Below, in pieces: positions 14,238-25,817 of a DNA stretch of 64,000 nt. Position numbers and translations under genes: made by a program. A model generated the notes under the pieces. That model had not been told where the DNA came from, did no database searches, and worked only from the letters and a program-made list of their open reading frames with translations. Within the stretch, counting starts at the first letter, position 1. Every line of letters begins with the position of its first letter. Origin of the DNA: Peptoniphilus raoultii (GTDB taxonomy: Bacteria; Bacillota; Clostridia; Tissierellales; Peptoniphilaceae); NCBI RefSeq assembly GCF_900099555.1, contig NZ_FMWM01000002.1, positions 816,018 through 880,017 of the forward strand. Reading direction: 5' to 3'.

Positions 14238-14984
14238 ATGGCAGACAACAGAAGATACTATTGGTTAAAATTGAAAGAAGATTTTTTTACAGATAAGAGA
14301 ATCAAAAGGCTAAGAAAAATATCAGGAGGAGATACCTATACAATCATTTACCTCAAATTGCTTTTGCTTAGCCTAAAAGATAGTGGAAAACTGTATTATG
14401 ACGGAGTAGAAACAGACTTTATCAAAGAGCTTGCCTTAACGATTGATGAAACAGAAGATGATGTAATGGTTACAGTGAACTATCTTATGGCACAAGGATT
14501 GATGGAGATAATCACAGAAAATGACGAGTATTTTTTAACAGAAATCCCAAGTCTTATAGGTTCAGAAACAGCGTCTACAAGGCGTTCGAGAAAATCGAGA
14601 GGACAAAAAGCGTTGCAATGCAACACTAATGCAACACATTGCAACCTTTTGCAACAAAATTGCAACGGAGATATAGAGAAAGAAATAGATATAGAGTTAG
14701 AAAAAGAGGGGGAGAAAGAAAAAATATCCCCCTCCCTTTATGGAGAATATAAAAATGTTTCCTTAACTGATGAAGAATATGGAAAATTAAAGGATAAAAT
14801 GCAATGTCATAGGGATAAAATGATAGAGAAGCTGTCAACCTATATGCAAAGTACAGGAAGAAACTACAAAGACCATTATGCGACCTTGGTTCATTGGTAT
14901 GAACAGGACAAAGGGAAATTAAAGGAAAACAGTAAATCAAAAGTATATACCTTTGAAGATTATGACAAGGGTGAACACTTGTAG
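14238..14984 (+). CDS. Phage replisome organizer N-terminal domain protein (replication initiator-like)
   Basis: This 248-residue protein begins RRYYWLKLKEDFFTDKRIKR and contains ISGGDTYTIIYLKLLLLSLKD, typical of the phage replisome organizer N-terminal winged-helix domain. The middle is a low-complexity charged linker (residues 140-165). A helical C-terminal domain follows (YGEYKNVSLTDEEYGKLKDKM, YKDHYATLVHWYEQDK). It probably starts replication of the excised circle by loading the host helicase. Related genes occur at 24,215 (N part only) and 25,906 (frameshifted), and their comparison confirms the domain layout here. Confidence 0.8.
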   Translation: MADNRRYYWLKLKEDFFTDKRIKRLRKISGGDTYTIIYLKLLLLSLKDSGKLYYDGVETDFIKELALTIDETEDDVMVTVNYLMAQGLMEIITENDEYFLTEIPSLIGSETASTRRSRKSRGQKALQCNTNATHCNLLQQNCNGDIEKEIDIELEKEGEKEKISPSLYGEYKNVSLTDEEYGKLKDKMQCHRDKMIEKLSTYMQSTGRNYKDHYATLVHWYEQDKGKLKENSKSKVYTFEDYDKGEHL

Positions 14985-15166
14985 ACCTCGTATAAGACGG
15001 TGGAAAGGCTTTTTAAGAGTGTTAATAATAAAATAGGTATCAGATTATGGCTAATTGTAAAAACATCGTATAAGGGCTTAAATTTGTGGTATGGAAAAAA
15101 TATCGTATTTATGATAAAATGATAATGATATGGTAATAAACTCAGTTATAAGGAGAGGATATATAA

Positions 15167-15490
15167 ATGCGAATTCAATTTACTGTAACCGATGAAGAAC
15201 TTGAAATTTTAACTAAAAAAGCAATAGAGGGAGGTTTCCCAAGCGTTACTGAATATTGTAAGTGTAGTAGTTTACAAGAAAATACAAGCTATGCTGACCT
15301 ATATACTACCTTATTAAACAAAATTAGCTCTTTACCGAAAGGCAAAGAATTTGTTTTGAGAGAGTTAATCGCAACACCGCCGGCATTGATTGGCAGATGG
15401 TTTTATGAAAATGTAAATAAGAGACTTGTAAAAAATGTGGAACACATCGGAAAAGCTGAAGGTGGAGTAGAAAAATATAAAAAGATATGA
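15167..15490 (+). CDS. DUF1413-like small protein
   Basis: This 107-residue protein starts at ATG behind AAGGAGAGG. The N-terminal MRIQFTVTDEELEILTKKAIEGGFPSVTEY part resembles a ribbon-helix-helix region. The C-terminal LPKGKEFVLRELIATPPALIGRWFYENV part matches the DUF1413 pattern. Such proteins are common in mobile elements and could bind DNA, but no function is established. It lies between the replication and ORF6N genes of the second element. The 182 bases before it hold AT-rich DNA with a possible TATGATAAAAT -10 region but no gene. Confidence 0.6.
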   Translation: MRIQFTVTDEELEILTKKAIEGGFPSVTEYCKCSSLQENTSYADLYTTLLNKISSLPKGKEFVLRELIATPPALIGRWFYENVNKRLVKNVEHIGKAEGGVEKYKKI

Positions 15491-15563
15491 GACTTATTTC
15501 AAAAAGCTACGCAGTGCGTGGCGGATTGGAAAAGATATTTAGATAATTTTGGAGGTGCATTTC

Positions 15564-16553
15564 ATGGCAGATGAAAATAAAGAGATAGTTATTGTAGATG
15601 ATAAAACTATACAAGAAAAAATATATTTCATTCGTGGACAAAAAGTAATGCTTGATGCAGATTTAGCTGAAATATATGGTTATGAAACTAAAAACTTTAA
15701 TAGACAGGTAAAAAATAATATTGAAAAGTTTGAAGGCGAAGATTTTATGTTTCAATTGACCGAGAATGAGTTTGAAAACTTGAGGTGCAAAAATTTCACC
15801 TCAAGTTGGGGCGGCTCAAGGTACCTACCAAATGCCTTTACGGAACAAGGTATTTATATGCTTATGACGGTATTAAGAGGTGAACTTGCGATTAGGCAAA
15901 GTAGAGCCTTAATTAGAACATTTAAGCAGATGAAAGACTTTATAATCGAAAATCAAGATTTTATTAGCTCAAAAGAATTGGTACAAATAGCAGTACAGAC
16001 AAATCAAAACACAAAGGATATAGCTGAAATAAAGTCGCAAATGGCTACAAAAGAAGATTTGAAAAAGGTTATGGATAATTTTATAGATCCGGACACATAC
16101 AAGCATTTCCTTTTAATGAATGGAGATAAGATTGAAGCGGATGTTGCCTATACAAAAATATATAAGTCAGCAAAGAAAAGCATTTATGTAATAGATAACT
16201 ATATAGGCTTGAAAACCTTAGAATTATTAAGAGCTGCAAAAGACAATGTTGAAATTATAGTCTTTAGCGACAATATGAAAAATAAAGATATGCTTACAAA
16301 AAACATCCTAAATGATTTTAGAAGAGATTATCCAAATATCAACTTAAAAATGAAGGTTGCAGGCAAAAAATATCACGATAGATATATTGCAATAGACTAT
16401 GGAACAGAAAATGAAGCCTTTTATCTTTGCGGAGCTTCATCAAAGGACGCAGGAAATAAAATATCAAGTATTACCAAGATAGAAGAATCCTCTAAGGATA
16501 TGTATCATAAAATGTTTGGTGGAATGTTAAACAATAAGAATTTGAAAATTTAA
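15564..16553 (+). CDS. ORF6N-domain DNA-binding protein with PLD-like C-terminal domain
   Basis: ATG 15,564 follows GGAGGTG (15,551-15,557) and gives 329 residues. Residues about 15-125 form an ORF6N domain (KIYFIRGQKVMLDADLAEIYG, TSSWGGSRYLPNAFTEQGIY). The C-terminal 130 residues (KSAKKSIYVIDNYIGLKTLELL, KYHDRYIAIDYGTENEAFYLCGASSKDAGNK) resemble the half-barrel of phospholipase D-like proteins, with HDR in place of the usual HxK. ORF6N proteins come from phages and mobile elements and act as DNA-binding regulators. It is nearly identical in its C-terminal half to the protein at 24,822. Whether the PLD-like part cuts nucleic acid is unknown. Confidence 0.75.
   Translation: MADENKEIVIVDDKTIQEKIYFIRGQKVMLDADLAEIYGYETKNFNRQVKNNIEKFEGEDFMFQLTENEFENLRCKNFTSSWGGSRYLPNAFTEQGIYMLMTVLRGELAIRQSRALIRTFKQMKDFIIENQDFISSKELVQIAVQTNQNTKDIAEIKSQMATKEDLKKVMDNFIDPDTYKHFLLMNGDKIEADVAYTKIYKSAKKSIYVIDNYIGLKTLELLRAAKDNVEIIVFSDNMKNKDMLTKNILNDFRRDYPNINLKMKVAGKKYHDRYIAIDYGTENEAFYLCGASSKDAGNKISSITKIEESSKDMYHKMFGGMLNNKNLKI
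15777..15807. repeat. Inverted repeat inside the ORF6N coding region
   Basis: Perfect eleven-base arms AACTTGAGGTG (15,777-15,787) and CACCTCAAGTT (15,797-15,807) enclose a nine-base A/T-rich loop. They encode the stretch just before SSWGG. The paralog has an inverted repeat at the same codons with different inner arm sequence (25,032-25,062). Confidence 0.8.
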
Positions 16554-18874: not shown

Positions 18875-19093
18875 ATGGCACTTAACTATAAACCATTATG
18901 GATACAGTTAGCGAAAAAAGGACTAAAGAAAACAGATGTAATAGCTATGGCAGGACTTACAACAAATGTTATGGCACAAATGGGCAAGGATAAACCAATA
19001 ACATTTAAGAATTTAGAAAGAATATGTAAGGCTTTATCTTGTACTCCTAATGACATTATTAGTTTTGAAGATAATTTTAGTGATGAGGAATAG
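18875..19093 (+). CDS. XRE/Cro-family regulator of the restriction-modification module
   Basis: This 72-residue protein is a single helix-turn-helix domain (KKTDVIAMAGLTTNVMAQMG, then FKNLERICKALSCTPNDIIS), the short Cro-like form. It lies two bases before the methylase-nuclease gene and shares its promoter. That is the arrangement of controller proteins, which delay or limit expression of a restriction enzyme when the module enters a new cell. No clear operator repeat was found near the promoter. Confidence 0.8.
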   Translation: MALNYKPLWIQLAKKGLKKTDVIAMAGLTTNVMAQMGKDKPITFKNLERICKALSCTPNDIISFEDNFSDEE

Positions 19094-19095
19094 GT

Positions 19096-21114
19096 ATGAT
19101 TGAAAAGTGGAAACTCGAAGATGATGTAAATGATTATGTAAAAAATAAATTTTCGGAAATAGGTCTTAAAAAATTAAAAGATTATAATGTGGAATCTTCT
19201 ATGTCTGACTACATGAAAGATGCTCTAAAAGGTTCTGCAAAAACAAAGACAAAAACAAATTTCGGAAAACCTGATTTTCATGTCGAAAAATATGATATAC
19301 CAGTTATATTTGAAGACAAACTGGGAAGTAAAAGGTTAATATCTGAAAATAAAGATGGAATAAAAGAAGATGAGAAATCTATTCGAGATTATGCTAGCAA
19401 TGGTGCTATATATTATTCAACACAAATGATAGCAAGCGGAAAGTATAAGGAAGCGATAGCTATTGGAGTGGCAGGAGATAATAGTGAAAATGTAATCTTC
19501 GATACTTATTATATTTTTGGTTCATCATTTAAATCCATAAAAAAAATGCAAAGCTATGCAAGTATAGATTTTTTAGAGAATGAAAAAACTTTCTCTAATT
19601 TTTATAATGATTGTGTTTTAACAGAAGAAGAAAAACATGAAATATTAATCACCAGTAGAACACTTTTGCAGAAATATGCAGGTGAATTAAACAAACTTAT
19701 GCACAATCATAATATTACAGCTCCACAAAGAGTACTTTATGTATCGGGTATGCTTTTATCTATGCAGGATATATTAGACGAAGATGGAAATTTAGTTCAA
19801 AGAGGACTTATACCAGAAGACTTGTTGGGAGCAAAAACAGACACTAAAAGAGATGGTATCTTAATCACAAATCAAATAAAAGAATATTTAAAACAAAAAC
19901 AAATAAAACAAGAGAAAGTAGATTTAATGCTTTCATCTTTTAGTGAAATTTCAAAAGATAGTCAAAGAGATGAGCCAACAGATTTAGATAAGTTAGTTGG
20001 AAAACTTTTAGAAAAAGAAGCAAGTAGTAATAAGCAAATCTTCACTTATATTTTCAATAATATTTATATGTCTATAGATGCTATGGCAGGACACTTAGAT
20101 ATAATGGGCGAGATGTATTCTGAATTTTTAAAATATGCTTTAGGTGATGGTAAAGAAATAGGAATAGTTCTTACTCCTCCATATGTAACAAAAATGATGG
20201 CTGAAATTTTAAATGTAAATAAAGATTCAAGAACCATGGATTTAGCCACGGGATCGGCAGGATTTTTAATAAGTTCTATGGAAATAATGATTGACGATGC
20301 TAATAAAACTTTTGGAAAAGATACAAGCAAGGCTAATAAAAAAATAGAAGAAATCAAAAAAGAACAATTACTCGGCGTAGAATTGAATGCAGAAATGTTT
20401 ACCTTAGCAGCAACCAACATGATTTTAAGAGGAGATGGGTCAAGTAATATTAGAAAAGGCAACACATTTAGAACTCCAGAGGAATTATATACAAACTTTA
20501 AGGCTAATAGACTTCTTTTAAACCCACCTTTTTCATTTGAGGAAAATGGTATGCCATTTATAAGATTTGGTTTATCAAAAATGGAAAAAGGAGGTCTAGC
20601 AGCAATAATCATACAAGATAGTGCAGGAAGTGGAAGAGCTGTATCCAGCAATCAAGAAATTTTGAAAAATAACACTCTTCTTGCAAGTATAAAAATGCCG
20701 GTTGATTTATTTATTCCAATGGCAGGAGTTCAAACAAGTATATACGTCTTTGAGGCAGGAGTGCCACATGACTATGAAAAGACGGTAAAATTCATAGATT
20801 TTAGAAATGATGGATATAAGAGAACAAAAAGAGGATTAAATGAAACAGATAGTCCAACCGAAAGATATCAAGACATTGTAAAAATATATAAAGCGGGGAA
20901 AAGTGCAAGAGTAAATGGAAGTCTTTGGGATATTGATGAAATTTATATAGAGGATTTTATAAGTGATGGTGGTAATGACTGGAATTTTGAACAACATAAG
21001 ATAATAGATACTAAACCTAAGATAGAAGATTTTAAAAATACCGTTGCCGATTATTTAGCTTGGGAAGTATCTAATATTTTAAAAAGTGAGGACAAATCAT
21101 TAAAAAAAGCTTAA
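19096..21114 (+). CDS. Fused restriction endonuclease/N6-adenine methylase (BcgI-like type IIB)
   Basis: This 672-residue protein joins a nuclease and an HsdM-type methylase. The N-terminal part has PD (59-60) and EDK (73-75), matching a PD-(D/E)xK nuclease core. The methylase has SAM motif DLATGSAGF (382-390) and catalytic NPPF (476-479). A fused R-M chain of this size next to a separate S gene, with no hsdR visible, is the BcgI arrangement: the complex methylates and also cuts on both sides of a two-part site. A modification-only enzyme is less likely because the nuclease residues look intact. It overlaps the 5' end of the S gene. Confidence 0.75.
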   Translation: MIEKWKLEDDVNDYVKNKFSEIGLKKLKDYNVESSMSDYMKDALKGSAKTKTKTNFGKPDFHVEKYDIPVIFEDKLGSKRLISENKDGIKEDEKSIRDYASNGAIYYSTQMIASGKYKEAIAIGVAGDNSENVIFDTYYIFGSSFKSIKKMQSYASIDFLENEKTFSNFYNDCVLTEEEKHEILITSRTLLQKYAGELNKLMHNHNITAPQRVLYVSGMLLSMQDILDEDGNLVQRGLIPEDLLGAKTDTKRDGILITNQIKEYLKQKQIKQEKVDLMLSSFSEISKDSQRDEPTDLDKLVGKLLEKEASSNKQIFTYIFNNIYMSIDAMAGHLDIMGEMYSEFLKYALGDGKEIGIVLTPPYVTKMMAEILNVNKDSRTMDLATGSAGFLISSMEIMIDDANKTFGKDTSKANKKIEEIKKEQLLGVELNAEMFTLAATNMILRGDGSSNIRKGNTFRTPEELYTNFKANRLLLNPPFSFEENGMPFIRFGLSKMEKGGLAAIIIQDSAGSGRAVSSNQEILKNNTLLASIKMPVDLFIPMAGVQTSIYVFEAGVPHDYEKTVKFIDFRNDGYKRTKRGLNETDSPTERYQDIVKIYKAGKSARVNGSLWDIDEIYIEDFISDGGNDWNFEQHKIIDTKPKIEDFKNTVADYLAWEVSNILKSEDKSLKKA

Positions 21115-22304
21115 GCCCTCGTTTAGAAAAACTTGAAAGAGAGTTTTTAGAAAACGGGGGCGAATGGAAAGAATTTGATTTTGATAAACTCTTTAATGTT
21201 GCACGTGGAGATATTCAAAATCAAAAAACTCTTATAAGAAATGATGTTGGAGTTTCGTTTGTTGCACAAAACGATATAAATAATGGCTATGTATATAAAG
21301 TTAGCAATAATGATTATAGGAAATTTAAAGGTAATTCTATAATAATCGGCAGACAGACAGGAGTTATTTATTATCAACCGGAAGAATTCATAACAACCGA
21401 TGGAGTGCTTATATTAGAAGAAAAAATTCCATTAATAAAAAATAAACGAGTAGGATTATTTATTTGTAGTTTAATTAAGAAACATATGGTTATATATGGA
21501 TATACAAACACAGTTTCTGCAAAAAAGTTGAATAATTTAAAACTCAATTTGCCATTTTTAAATGGCAAGATGAATTTTTCCTATATGGAAAAATTCATCG
21601 AGGAACTCGAAGCGGAACGCATCGAGGAACTTGAAGCGTATTTAATGGCAACTGGACTTAAAGATTATAAATTGACAAAAGAAGATGAAAAAATACTTGA
21701 TGATTTTGAAAAAATGTCAGACAATTCTTTAGAAAGAAAGAAAGAAAGAAAGAAAGACAAGATTAGATTAGAAGATTTATTGATATGGCAAAGTGGAATT
21801 TCAGAGATAGATCCGTTGAAATTGAATGAATTATACGATAAAGCTTCTGAAAAATATCCATTTTATGGTCAATCTACTGATAACAACGGAATAATAAGTT
21901 ATGAATCATTAAAGGCAGAAGTTTTAAATAATAAAAATGCTTTGCCAACTATATTGGTTCATTCAAACAATCAAAATGTTGTTTATCTACAAACACCTTT
22001 TTATTTAAAAGATGGTCATGGAGCTACTAGTGTATTACAGAATGAGAATATGAACTTAGATATTGCATTATATATAATGACATGTATTAGAAAATCAATA
22101 ACAGAAAGATTTGATTATAATGCAAAAGCAACTAAGATAGGATTAAAGAATACAGAAGTAGAAATACCATTTTGCAATGAGGTTGTCGATTATATATTTA
22201 TGGATAAATTTATAAAGGTTGTTAAGAAACTTATTATAAAAGATGTTGTAATATGGGCAGATAAAAAAATTGAAGCTACAAAAAAAGTAGCCTTACAAAA
22301 TTAA
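21099..22304 (+). CDS. Specificity subunit (HsdS-like) with tetranucleotide repeat
   Basis: The S subunit recognises the two halves of the target for the preceding enzyme. The first target domain (about 21,130-21,560) ends in the helix SYMEKFIEELEAERIEELEA. A second target domain runs from about 21,775 to 22,180, with a final helical segment. A tract of six GAAA units lies between the halves. The frame is open from 21,090 but has no ATG near its start. The candidate is ATT 21,099 behind GAGGA (21,088-21,092), so the start is uncertain. The first in-frame ATG (21,405) would cut off half of domain one. Loss or gain of one repeat unit leaves a half-length protein. Confidence 0.75.
   Translation: MKKSLSPRLEKLEREFLENGGEWKEFDFDKLFNVARGDIQNQKTLIRNDVGVSFVAQNDINNGYVYKVSNNDYRKFKGNSIIIGRQTGVIYYQPEEFITTDGVLILEEKIPLIKNKRVGLFICSLIKKHMVIYGYTNTVSAKKLNNLKLNLPFLNGKMNFSYMEKFIEELEAERIEELEAYLMATGLKDYKLTKEDEKILDDFEKMSDNSLERKKERKKDKIRLEDLLIWQSGISEIDPLKLNELYDKASEKYPFYGQSTDNNGIISYESLKAEVLNNKNALPTILVHSNNQNVVYLQTPFYLKDGHGATSVLQNENMNLDIALYIMTCIRKSITERFDYNAKATKIGLKNTEVEIPFCNEVVDYIFMDKFIKVVKKLIIKDVVIWADKKIEATKKVALQN
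21597..21638 (+). repeat. Two 18-base direct repeats in the central helix of the S subunit
   Basis: ATCGAGGAACTCGAAGCG (21,597-21,614) and ATCGAGGAACTTGAAGCG (21,621-21,638) differ by one base and have a 24-base period. They encode two IEELEA units. Similar repeats in type I S subunits set the distance between the two half-sites, and changes in copy number change the recognised spacing. Confidence 0.8.
21732..21755 (+). repeat. Six GAAA tetranucleotide repeats inside the S subunit gene
   Basis: Six uninterrupted GAAA units encode an alternating E-R-K-K stretch between the halves of the S subunit. A change of one or two units shifts the frame. Both other frames stop within five codons (TAG at 21,764 and 21,769 in present numbering). 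Confidence 0.9.
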
Positions 22305-24214: not shown

Positions 24215-24688
24215 ATGGCAACAAACAAAAGATATTATTGGATAAAATTAAAAGAAGAATTTTTCACAGACAAAAGGAAAAAAAGATTAAGGAGAATATC
24301 GGGAGGAGATACCTACACGATAATCTACCTCAAACTTCTACTACTAAGCCTAAAAGATGAGGGCAAACTCTATTATGACGGAGTAGAAAGTGATTTTATA
24401 AAAGAGTTAGCACTAACCATAGATGAAACAGACGATGATGTAATGGTCACAGTTAATTATTTAATAAATCAAGGCTTATTAGAAGTTGTAACAGAAAATG
24501 ATGAATATTATTTAACTGAGATACCAAGCCTAATAGGATTAGAAACAGCTTGGGCAGAGAAAAAAAGAATATACAGACAAAATAAACAGAGGACATTGTC
24601 CTTAATGAGTCCAACCCATGTCCGACAAGAGATAGAGAAAGATATAGAGATAGATAAAGAGAGAGAGGGAGAGATAGAAAAGATTTAA
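24215..24688 (+). CDS. Phage replisome organizer N-terminal domain protein, shortened
   Basis: The first 115 residues are nearly identical to the protein at 14,238 (RRYYW/RYYWIKLKEEFFTDKR, ISGGDTYTIIYLKLLLLSLK). After a charged linker (EKDIEIDKEREGEIEKI) the frame ends at 157 residues, so the helical C-terminal domain is missing. A matching C-terminal domain occurs at 26,378-26,606, behind another initiator gene and an ORF6N gene. Insertion of the ORF6N/initiator block into this gene, or exchange of tails, would explain the layout. The remaining winged-helix domain could still bind DNA. Confidence 0.65.
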   Translation: MATNKRYYWIKLKEEFFTDKRKKRLRRISGGDTYTIIYLKLLLLSLKDEGKLYYDGVESDFIKELALTIDETDDDVMVTVNYLINQGLLEVVTENDEYYLTEIPSLIGLETAWAEKKRIYRQNKQRTLSLMSPTHVRQEIEKDIEIDKEREGEIEKI

Positions 24689-24694
24689 CATTTT

Positions 24695-24703
24695 TGGTAT
24701 AAT
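24695..24703 (+). promoter_or_regulatory. Extended -10 promoter before the second ORF6N gene
   Basis: TGGTATAAT lies seven bases after the shortened initiator gene and about 120 bases before the ORF6N start, leaving a long untranslated leader that contains no recognised structure. Confidence 0.5.
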
Positions 24704-24821
24704 TATAAAAATTAGACTTTGAAAATATGATGGATAATTGGCTTAAGAGCTGTAAGCTAAATGAAATAAAGAGAAAATGGCTAAAAGTTGTAGTCCCCAA
24801 AATATATAGGAGGTGCATTTT

Positions 24822-25817
24822 GTGGCAGAACAAAATAAGGAAATTGTAGTTATAGATGAAACTACAATTAAAAGTAAGATTTACTATATACGAAATCAAA
24901 GGATTATGCTTGATTTTGAGTTGGCTGAAATCTATGGGTATACAACGACAAGATTTAACGAACAAGTAAAAAATAATTCGGAGAAATTTGATGATGATTT
25001 TATGTTTCAGTTGACGAAGTCAGAGTTTGAAAACTTGATATCGAAAAAATCGACATCAAGTTGGGGCGGGCGTAGAAAACTACCTTATGCTTTTACAGAA
25101 CAGGGAATATATATGCTTATGACTGTATTAAGGGGAGAACTTGCTGTTAAACAGAGCAAGGCTTTAATACGAATGTTTAAGCAGATGAAAGACTTCATCG
25201 TTGAAAATCAAGATTTTATCAGCTCAAAGGAATTAGTTCAAATAGCAATTCAAACAAATCAAAACACAAATGATATTGCAAGGATAGATAGCAAGATTAA
25301 CACATTAGCTACTAAAGAAGATTTGAAAAAGGTAATGGACAATTTTATAGACCCGGAAACATATAAACATTTCCTCTTGATGAATGGAGATAAGATAGAA
25401 GCTGATGTTGCCTATACAAAAATATATAAATCAGCAAAGAAAAGCATTTATGTAATTGATAACTATGTAGGACTTAAAACATTGGAACTTTTAAGAGCTG
25501 CAAGAGATAAGACTCAAATCATAGTCTTTAGCGATAATGTCAAGAACAAGGATATGCTTACAAAAAATATCTTGGATGATTTTGTAAAAGATTATCCTAA
25601 TATAGACCTGAAGCTTAAGATAGCAGGTAAAAAATACCATGATAGATATATTGCCATAGACTATGGAACAGAAAATGAAGCCTTTTATCTTTGCGGAGCT
25701 TCGTCAAAGGATGCAGGAAATAAAATATCAAGTATTACCAAGATAGAAGAATCTTCTAAAGATATGTATCATGACATGTTTAGTAAGATGTTAAATAATA
25801 AAGACTTAAAAATTTAA
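24822..25817 (+). CDS. Second ORF6N-domain protein with PLD-like C-terminal domain
   Basis: GTG 24,822 follows AGGAGGTG and aligns with the ATG of the paralog at 15,564. This gives 331 residues. The N-terminal ORF6N domain (KIYYIRNQRIMLDFELAEIY, TSSWGGRRKLPYAFTEQGIY) differs clearly from the paralog, while the C-terminal PLD-like part (KYHDRYIAIDYGTENEAFYL) is almost the same even in DNA. This mosaic pattern suggests exchange of the DNA-binding part with conservation of the effector part. The function is unknown. It stands between two replication-initiator genes. Confidence 0.75.
   Translation: MAEQNKEIVVIDETTIKSKIYYIRNQRIMLDFELAEIYGYTTTRFNEQVKNNSEKFDDDFMFQLTKSEFENLISKKSTSSWGGRRKLPYAFTEQGIYMLMTVLRGELAVKQSKALIRMFKQMKDFIVENQDFISSKELVQIAIQTNQNTNDIARIDSKINTLATKEDLKKVMDNFIDPETYKHFLLMNGDKIEADVAYTKIYKSAKKSIYVIDNYVGLKTLELLRAARDKTQIIVFSDNVKNKDMLTKNILDDFVKDYPNIDLKLKIAGKKYHDRYIAIDYGTENEAFYLCGASSKDAGNKISSITKIEESSKDMYHDMFSKMLNNKDLKI
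25032..25062. repeat. Inverted repeat inside the second ORF6N coding region
   Basis: Thirteen-base arms AACTTGATATCGA (25,032-25,044) and TCGACATCAAGTT (25,050-25,062) have one mismatch and a five-A loop. The position in the gene is the same as the repeat at 15,777-15,807, but the inner arm bases have changed on both sides together. Confidence 0.8.

Follow-up and report, generated by a model that had tools for sequence, protein, structure and literature searches.

A type IIB-like restriction-modification operon of Peptoniphilus raoultii likely read through a −1 frameshift and a GAAA repeat switch

INTRODUCTION

Repeat-driven switching of a BcgI-like specificity (S) subunit, and the activity of half of such a subunit, are already known from Helicobacter pylori, according to the available excerpts of two reports (PMC3936762, PMC4450513). 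In strain UM032, the system HpyUM032XIII (K747_03825) consists of a BcgI-like nuclease-methylase fusion (RM) and an S gene that is split into TRD halves by a poly-G12/G11 repeat. RM together with the half-length S is active on the palindrome CYAN7TRG, which it methylates, while the joined S acts on the asymmetric site CYAN7TTC, and S2 alone does nothing (PMC4450513). Hpy99XXII and HP1471/HP1472 are also BcgI-like, with a stop after RM, an S without a start, and a G13/G14 tract in S; the authors thought that the missing S start probably explained the lack of activity and supplied a ribosome-binding site and start codon (PMC3936762).

Related enzymes show several other layouts. BcgI has separate subunits, HaeIV is RM fused to one TRD and reads a symmetric site, and AloI is RM fused to two TRDs (PMC3874165). 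In the type I system NgoAV, a poly-G tract cuts S to one TRD with a palindromic site, and helix repeats alter the spacing (PMC6789123). A second tract in the type IIG enzyme JHP1272/HP1353, which is another enzyme type, adds a C-terminal domain and changes the motif, and the type I S protein JHP1422 has three TRDs and reads two sites, a case to compare with the three-TRD relatives described below (PMC3936762). An engineered M-S fusion of EcoKI works, yet needs extra free M in vitro (PMC3510504), and the composition of BsaXI is (RM)2S (PMC11997821).

Here, we describe an operon from a 64,000-nucleotide stretch of Peptoniphilus raoultii (contig NZ_FMWM01000002.1, positions 816,018 to 880,017), referred to in full as the window. 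It resembles HpyUM032XIII in having a BcgI-like RM and an S divided between its TRDs by a repeat, but the repeat is (GAAA)6 and the host belongs to the Bacillota rather than to a Gram-negative group; furthermore, the window carries a putative frameshift signal between RM and S, of which there is no description for HpyUM032XIII in the available excerpt (PMC4450513). With Hpy99XXII and HP1471/HP1472 it shares the RM stop and the start-less S. It is unlike NgoAV in enzyme type and in its tract, which is not mononucleotide (PMC6789123), and unlike HaeIV and AloI, whose layouts are fixed in single genes with no frameshift or repeat described in the excerpt at hand (PMC3874165).

RESULTS

Organization of the operon

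The operon encodes a single RM chain with a gamma-type N6 methylase (PADLOC PDLC03616, Pfam N6_Mtase) and an S part with two TRDs, seen both as a Methylase_S match in two stretches and as two matches to TRD profiles (Table 1). The RM N-terminus is covered by the whole-length PADLOC match; Pfam reports no nuclease domain there, and PDFHVEKYDIPVIFEDK in RM is a segment that we take, by eye, to resemble a PD-(D/E)XK motif. A search for solved structures related to S by sequence returned none at E 0.01. The domain content suggests a type IIB-like restriction-modification operon, kin to BcgI, AloI, and HaeIV. The short duplication in the helix behind TRD1 could be a unit able to alter TRD spacing. 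Since the neighboring genes include those for MobA/MobL, a C-terminal piece of TraG-D, and two Phage_rep_org_N plus ORF6N modules, the region around the operon is likely mobile. The two modules are related to each other and flank the restriction-modification region at 14238-16553 and 24215-25817.

Table 1. Features of the RM-S operon, in window coordinates
Feature	Position	Strand	Evidence
Cro/C1-type HTH protein, 72 aa, directly 5′ of RM, possible controller	18875..19093	+	Pfam HTH_26, E 3e-15; role suggested by position
RM gene, nuclease-methylase fusion, 672 aa	19096..21114	+	PADLOC REase_MTase_IIG PDLC03616, E 7e-234 (residues 3-664); Pfam N6_Mtase, E 3e-30
Shine-Dalgarno-like GAGGA, 5′ of the slippery site	21088..21092	+	sequence
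S reading frame, −1 to RM, two TRDs; predicted fusion part from 21108	21090..22304	+	Pfam Methylase_S, E 4e-19; PADLOC Specificity_II, E 2e-22
Slippery heptamer A_AAA_AAA in the RM frame; −1 slip would enter the S frame at 21108	21102..21108	+	sequence
Stem-loop, outer 10 bp and inner 8 bp, beginning 6 nt past the heptamer	21115..21161	+	folding
TRD1	21141..21662	+	own TRD profile, E 5e-43
Imperfect in-frame 24-bp tandem duplication (IEELEAER/IEELEAYL), helix behind TRD1	21597..21644	+	sequence
TRD2, in frame solely under the present tract phase	21729..22274	+	own TRD profile, E 1e-32
(GAAA)6 tract, proposed frame switch preceding TRD2	21732..21755	+	sequence, frame analysis

Relatives were gathered with RM and RM alignments as queries; S alone reached few (1 locus among 47 pattern stretches of genome contigs and 0 of 12 viral ones). 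The resulting set comprised 110 loci, namely, 34 stretches from relatives, two further loci (L031, L064), 73 viral contigs, and the window.

The junction between RM and S

The first ATG, GTG, or TTG that the S frame offers before the tract is the GTG at 21405, and since this falls within TRD1, S as drawn has no ordinary start. At the end of RM, a heptamer of the X_XXY_YYZ form lies in the upstream frame with the downstream gene in −1, and a stem-loop, for which a stimulatory role is predicted, follows a few nucleotides 3′ (−22.8 kcal/mol, z −4.58, with 0 of 200 shuffles folding equally well). The usual spacing between a heptamer and a stimulatory RNA structure is 5 to 9 nt, and the −1 frameshift cassette of dnaX is built from a Shine-Dalgarno sequence, an A_AAA_AAR-type heptamer, and a stem-loop. 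dnaX is a different gene, and at the RM-S junction a slip would add a specificity domain.

With the heptamer types picked after the start and frame survey of the loci had been viewed, and therefore not blind, 16/18 start-less −1 clusters had A_AAA_AAA/G or G_GGA_AAA/G in the frame of RM, no more than 33 nt from its stop. This is a raw count, in that the remaining two clusters (L148; L149/L150) were classed as having no start by rule despite an ATG or GTG at the RM stop. Such heptamers occurred in 1/9 clusters with S in −1 and a start, in 1/43 with a +1 offset, and in 1/15 fused clusters, and their rate across RM codons generally was 0.17%. Three loci (L060, L062, and L200) have both the heptamer and an ATG, and the heptamer of L108 lies 30 nt 5′ of the RM stop. 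Five later-added loci (L085, L156, L193, L196, and L200) also fit the signal, with the caveats that L196 has the L122 sequence there, that L200 has an ATG as well, and that L156 has a TTG before TRD1. Among the 16 loci of the junction alignment (A6), 11 have G_GGA_AAA or G_GGA_AAG, with no long homopolymer and with the same phase and stem, and the S-frame codon directly past the slip is ATA in nine, GTA in five, and GCA and ATG in one each.

Stems following the heptamer had a mean z of −4.16 at 16 sites, 13 of them at −3 or lower, the weakest among the relatives being that of L106 (z −0.76). By comparison, 226 places chosen at random in these loci averaged −0.13, with 2 reaching −3 or lower, and the RM stops of +1 loci (n = 46) averaged −0.36, with 1 doing so. 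Within the 17-nt stretch that ends 3 nt 5′ of the heptamer, 11/16 cluster representatives had a Shine-Dalgarno-like 4-mer and 5/16 lacked one, against a background of 0.16 at same-phase RM positions and 0.40 after shuffling.

Eight named records were examined for the junction signal, and three had it: Acinetobacter haemolyticus plasmid CP085285, E. coli phage PhiR12_3, and an unannotated phage clone from faeces, in which there is an ATG too. No signal was seen in the other five (two L. salivarius plasmids, two Staphylococcus phages, and one Butyrivibrio plasmid). The PhiR12_3 junction sequence is identical to that of IMG/VR locus L122, and the next deposited gene in this phage begins 180 nt beyond the RM stop, well within the first TRD. 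In an RM tree, midpoint rooted and with long-branch warnings, a supported 20-row group that includes the window holds 15 frameshift-type rows, 4 fused rows, and 1 ordinary row; one further frameshift-type row, L125, is placed outside it. We conclude that S is probably made as an RM-S fusion through programmed −1 ribosomal frameshifting. Among the matches listed in open-licence PubMed Central, none described programmed frameshifting at an RM-S junction.

Covariation in the stem

Covariation was counted over a 13-bp helix in related sequences that encode conserved residues, against shuffles that ignore kinship. Twelve ungapped sequences gave 96.8% standard pairs versus 90.5% when shuffled, and 8 two-sided cells versus 2.4, a value reached in 1/500 shuffles. 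Adding four previously unused sequences (L085, L156, L193, and L200) gave 96.6% pairs versus 89.0% and 17 two-sided cells versus 3.7 (0/500 shuffles), and helix versions slid along the alignment gave only 33 to 46% pairs. The clearest case is pair 41-63, which pairs in 15/16 sequences as G-C, U-A, C-G, or U-G; column 41 corresponds to the silent third position of a leucine codon, and column 63 to the first position of a codon for Q, E, or K. Seven sequences gapped in the stem (the window, L060, L061, L101, L102, L106, and L125) were left out of these counts. Since the window is among them, the covariation supports the clade, and the window just by analogy and by its own fold.

A covariance model trained on 12 relatives, with the window excluded, matched 9 of 249 genomes of the order, each at the RM-S junction by position. 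Six of these genomes had contributed to the training set, and a seventh, G059, nearly duplicates one of them; the match in G136 (E 3e-10) is new, and G005 (E 0.0096) belongs to a relative in which S has an ordinary start. Applied to 26 sources, the model scored the window at 24 bits (E 0.21) and the new sources L156 and L125 at 75.8 and 52.3 bits, and it missed L061, L101, L102, and L106, whose stems or loops vary in length. Relatives with an ordinary ATG scored about equal to the window or above it (L088 at 34.4 bits and E 0.0019, L076 at 25.4, L078 at 23.5, and L072 at 23.0), so part of what the model recognizes is simply homology of the RM-S coding sequence. Given these scores and the four misses, we regard it as a test for near relatives only.

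The GAAA tract and the nearest relative

The initial annotation had described six perfect GAAA units in frame between the two halves of S, with both alternative frames closing within five codons, and both statements are borne out. The tract lies inside the open frame 21090-22304, within a surrounding run at 21731-21757; downstream of it, the S frame stays open for 182 codons before its stop, while the alternative frames stop at 21764 and 21769, 2.7 and 4.3 codons beyond. It is thus a coding repeat whose unit is not a multiple of three and around which the other frames close off. It is also the longest tetranucleotide array in the window, compared with a maximum of 4 copies in order-3 Markov simulations (n = 60), and the three overlapping matches to four GAAA units in the 1.62-Mb genome all fall within it. 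A protein alignment places the repeat-encoded peptide as an insertion behind the helix that follows TRD1.

The nearest relative is in Ezakiella coagulans DSM 20705 (L031), with an RM 92% identical to that of the window, a TRD1 region 53% identical (DNA), and a TRD2 94.5% identical. It bears (AGAC)5 at the place of the (GAAA)6 tract. Past TRD1 it is broken: an in-frame TAA precedes the tract, and TRD2 contains one stop and a gap of one base. With these lesions it is in a one-TRD state; RM-TRD1 remains open over 868 codons. dN/dS for RM between the two loci is 0.07. Across window positions 19096-22301, dS is 0.65 in RM, 0.20 in the helix, and 0.13 in TRD2, and the TRD1 sequences are unlike, a mosaic divergence pointing to exchange of S pieces. 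The S half of the Ezakiella copy is fused to RM in one frame, with A8 where the window has A7, and the A run itself could vary. This fusion and that of L110, which has one extra A, look like derivatives freed of the need to slip. A reading of the A7/A8 difference as a mere matter of sequencing or phase variation was dropped, as relatives use G_GGA_AAR heptamers. Downstream (3′) of the Ezakiella copy, at L031 7527-9135, is a gene pair that we take, by eye, to be AbiE-type toxin-antitoxin-like.

Some relatives have a single TRD. In L099 and L100 (RM identity 68%), RM is fused to one TRD and ends just past the post-TRD1 helix, and no profile match to a second TRD was found within the stretch examined. 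L. gasseri pHL20_1 has an RM 53% identical and an S of only 168 aa.

Repeats at TRD-TRD junctions

RM was present in 108 loci, of which 77 had at least two full TRDs and formed 64 clusters at 95% RM identity; the 31 with fewer full TRDs include L094, which has (AT)6 before its last TRD. Repeats were called at 9 copies for A/T, 8 for G/C, 6 for dinucleotides, 5 for trinucleotides, and 4 for tetra- to hexanucleotides. L166-L170, L172, and L174-L177 (contigs already included) and the partial loci L178 and L179 were left out of the count. A short repeat lay at a TRD-TRD junction in 18/64 clusters, and 46 had none. With a junction zone that was drawn after the repeat positions were known, and so not blind, this amounts to 18 repeats in 13,413 junction bases versus 1 in 63,066 other S bases, 1 in 112,145 RM bases, and 9 in 406,540 flanking bases, a density 61 to 149 times that of the rest of the loci. 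Every junction repeat precedes the last TRD, including in S genes with three or four TRDs (L072, L074-L080, L088, L093, L115, L124, L134, L139, and L153). The units are GAAA, AGAC, GACA, AT/TA, AG/GA, and G. The AT tracts of the three- and four-TRD S genes encode YIYIYI.

The repeat-bearing clusters are in frame in 6/18 cases and out of frame in 12/18, the one-third expected of a freely moving frame, and in 21/22 repeat-bearing loci the reading frames on either side stay open as far as the tract, the exception being Ezakiella. On an RM tree of 70 rows (15 with a repeat), which omits 13 near copies and RM stretches below 450 aa, the repeat label changes at least eight times. Copy-number differences are seen between close pairs. 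Viral contigs L115 and L153 differ over 4397 aligned columns by 8 mismatches and one gap of 8 bases, which falls in the AT tract (16 versus 12 units); both are out of frame, each in a different frame, and a search for further tract alleles of these contigs found none beyond those two. The tracts of L079 and L080 are G9 and G10, and the alignment of this pair over 3896 columns shows 8 mismatches and two gaps of one base each. L089 and L090 both carry (AG)8 and are almost alike in RM and TRD1, with a differing TRD behind the tract. In the distant relative L110 (RM identity 34%), (GACA)17 stands at the corresponding place, behind a similar MSDN peptide, and TRD2 is in another frame. The dN/dS of the last TRD was 0.10 to 0.29 in 24 of 66 pairs, namely those above 60% identity, including pairs with both copies out of frame; these values are rough, since dS exceeds 1 in 13 of the 24. 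They point to purifying selection on the last TRD, out-of-frame copies included.

Two other kinds of variation were seen in S. A single in-frame unit of 8 residues (ATLKAERV) in the inter-TRD helix distinguishes the near-identical systems L060 and L062, a difference that resembles the spacer repeats of EcoR124, and L106 and L109 have similar units. For L068 (4073) and L069 (3070), at ~59.9-77.9 kb of G078 C1, the S gene is split inside TRD1 by ~18 kb resembling a Tn916-like conjugative element, with an integrase, an excisionase, and an FtsK-like protein assigned by eye; the situation in G059 is similar.

DISCUSSION

We consider it likely that this type IIB-like RM-S operon is read through two recoding steps, a −1 frameshift followed by the GAAA switch; both are inferred, the first from conserved sequence and structure. 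Most ribosomes would end at the RM stop and release free RM, while a fraction would slip −1 on A_AAA_AAA, aided by GAGGA and the stem-loop, to give an RM-S fusion. Because one message would then yield RM and RM-S, the scheme fits the (RM)2S composition known for the family. The EcoKI M-S fusion needs extra free M in vitro (PMC3510504), and BsaXI is (RM)2S (PMC11997821); a frameshift would supply both parts. The GAAA tract would mutate by slipped-strand mispairing. In its present phase, the fusion would have a calculated length of ~1069 aa, carry TRD1 and TRD2, and be expected to recognize an asymmetric two-part site. Either of the alternative phases would give a fusion of ~890 aa that ends just past the post-TRD1 helix and would be expected to pair with itself to read a symmetric site composed of two TRD1 half-sites. 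Cutting and methylation would switch together, since both share the fusion, and the switch would alter target specificity rather than merely turn the system on or off. The alternatives are thus most likely a two-TRD fusion (AloI-like) and a one-TRD fusion (HaeIV-like), together with free RM, and one gene would probably give the cell lineage two DNA-marking patterns. The suggestion in the initial annotation that the repeat switches a BcgI-like S gains from the relatives (recurrence, copy-number differences, and selection on the last TRD), although S does not appear to be a free-standing subunit; likewise, its out-of-phase product with the first TRD alone agrees with the closing frames but is better described as a one-TRD RM-S fusion.

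Other explanations address one step or the other. For the tract, a plain on/off switch with inactive out-of-phase forms, as in many phase-variable methylases, would be in keeping with 12 of 18 repeat-bearing clusters being out of frame, so that inactive states would be common. We nevertheless find it unlikely, given that the truncated forms retain a whole TRD and its helix, that one-TRD relatives exist (L099, L100, and L. gasseri), that Ezakiella maintains an open RM-TRD1 frame of 868 codons alongside a broken TRD2, and that the H. pylori half-S is active (PMC4450513). The broken Ezakiella TRD2 might instead be read as a sign that the repeats reflect neutral decay of a dispensable last TRD. 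Such decay is very improbable in view of the bias of the repeats toward the junction before the last TRD, the open frames on both sides of 21/22 tracts, and a dN/dS of 0.10 to 0.29 in the last TRD.

For the RM-S junction, S might be a separate protein started at a near-cognate codon (ATC 21096 or ATT 21099) behind GAGGA, which stands at start-site distance from both, and the subunits of BcgI are indeed separate (PMC3874165). Yet no single near-cognate codon is kept directly past the slip, the codon there being ATA, GTA, GCA, or ATG across the 16 aligned loci; the heptamer phase and the covarying stem would be left unexplained, and the heptamer is rare where S has an ordinary start (1/9 and 1/43 clusters). 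We therefore judge a near-cognate start to be a rather poor prospect. Slippage of RNA polymerase or genetic indels in the A run, with A7 split and A8 fused, could account for the single-base difference between the window and Ezakiella and for the fused L110, which has one more A than its G_GGA_AAA relatives, but 11/16 aligned loci have G_GGA_AAA/G with no long homopolymer and keep the same phase and stem, which makes an origin in the A run quite improbable. Programmed −1 ribosomal frameshifting thus remains our preferred reading of the junction.

The initial annotation had proposed that a phase-variable type IIB module on a Gram-positive mobile element would be new. The idea of the switch is not new for type IIB enzymes, since the half-length S of H. 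pylori is active on a palindromic site (PMC4450513, in the excerpt available); the same case supplies a BcgI-like example of the active half-length S that the annotation had drawn from elsewhere. We came across no earlier report of the Gram-positive setting, of a tetranucleotide unit, or of the recurrence, and no repeat-switched type IIB S in Gram-positives appeared among the matches listed in open-licence PubMed Central. On balance, we tend to think that a broad clade, spanning Bacillota, an Acinetobacter plasmid, an E. coli phage, and perhaps the "silent" H. pylori systems, makes S solely by −1 frameshifting, which would set the RM:RM-S ratio for (RM)2S, and that repeats, repeatedly placed before the last TRD, switch the same operon from a one-TRD to a two-TRD enzyme and back (or from two TRDs to three), heritably and without recombination. 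Such a scheme is a candidate explanation for the start-less S genes of BcgI-like systems, which in H. pylori were taken to be broken, and for the supply of two RM per S from a single operon. It would mean that specificity switching by repeats, as in H. pylori, also operates in Gram-positive anaerobes, at a switch site that appears to have been occupied several times, by different repeat units.
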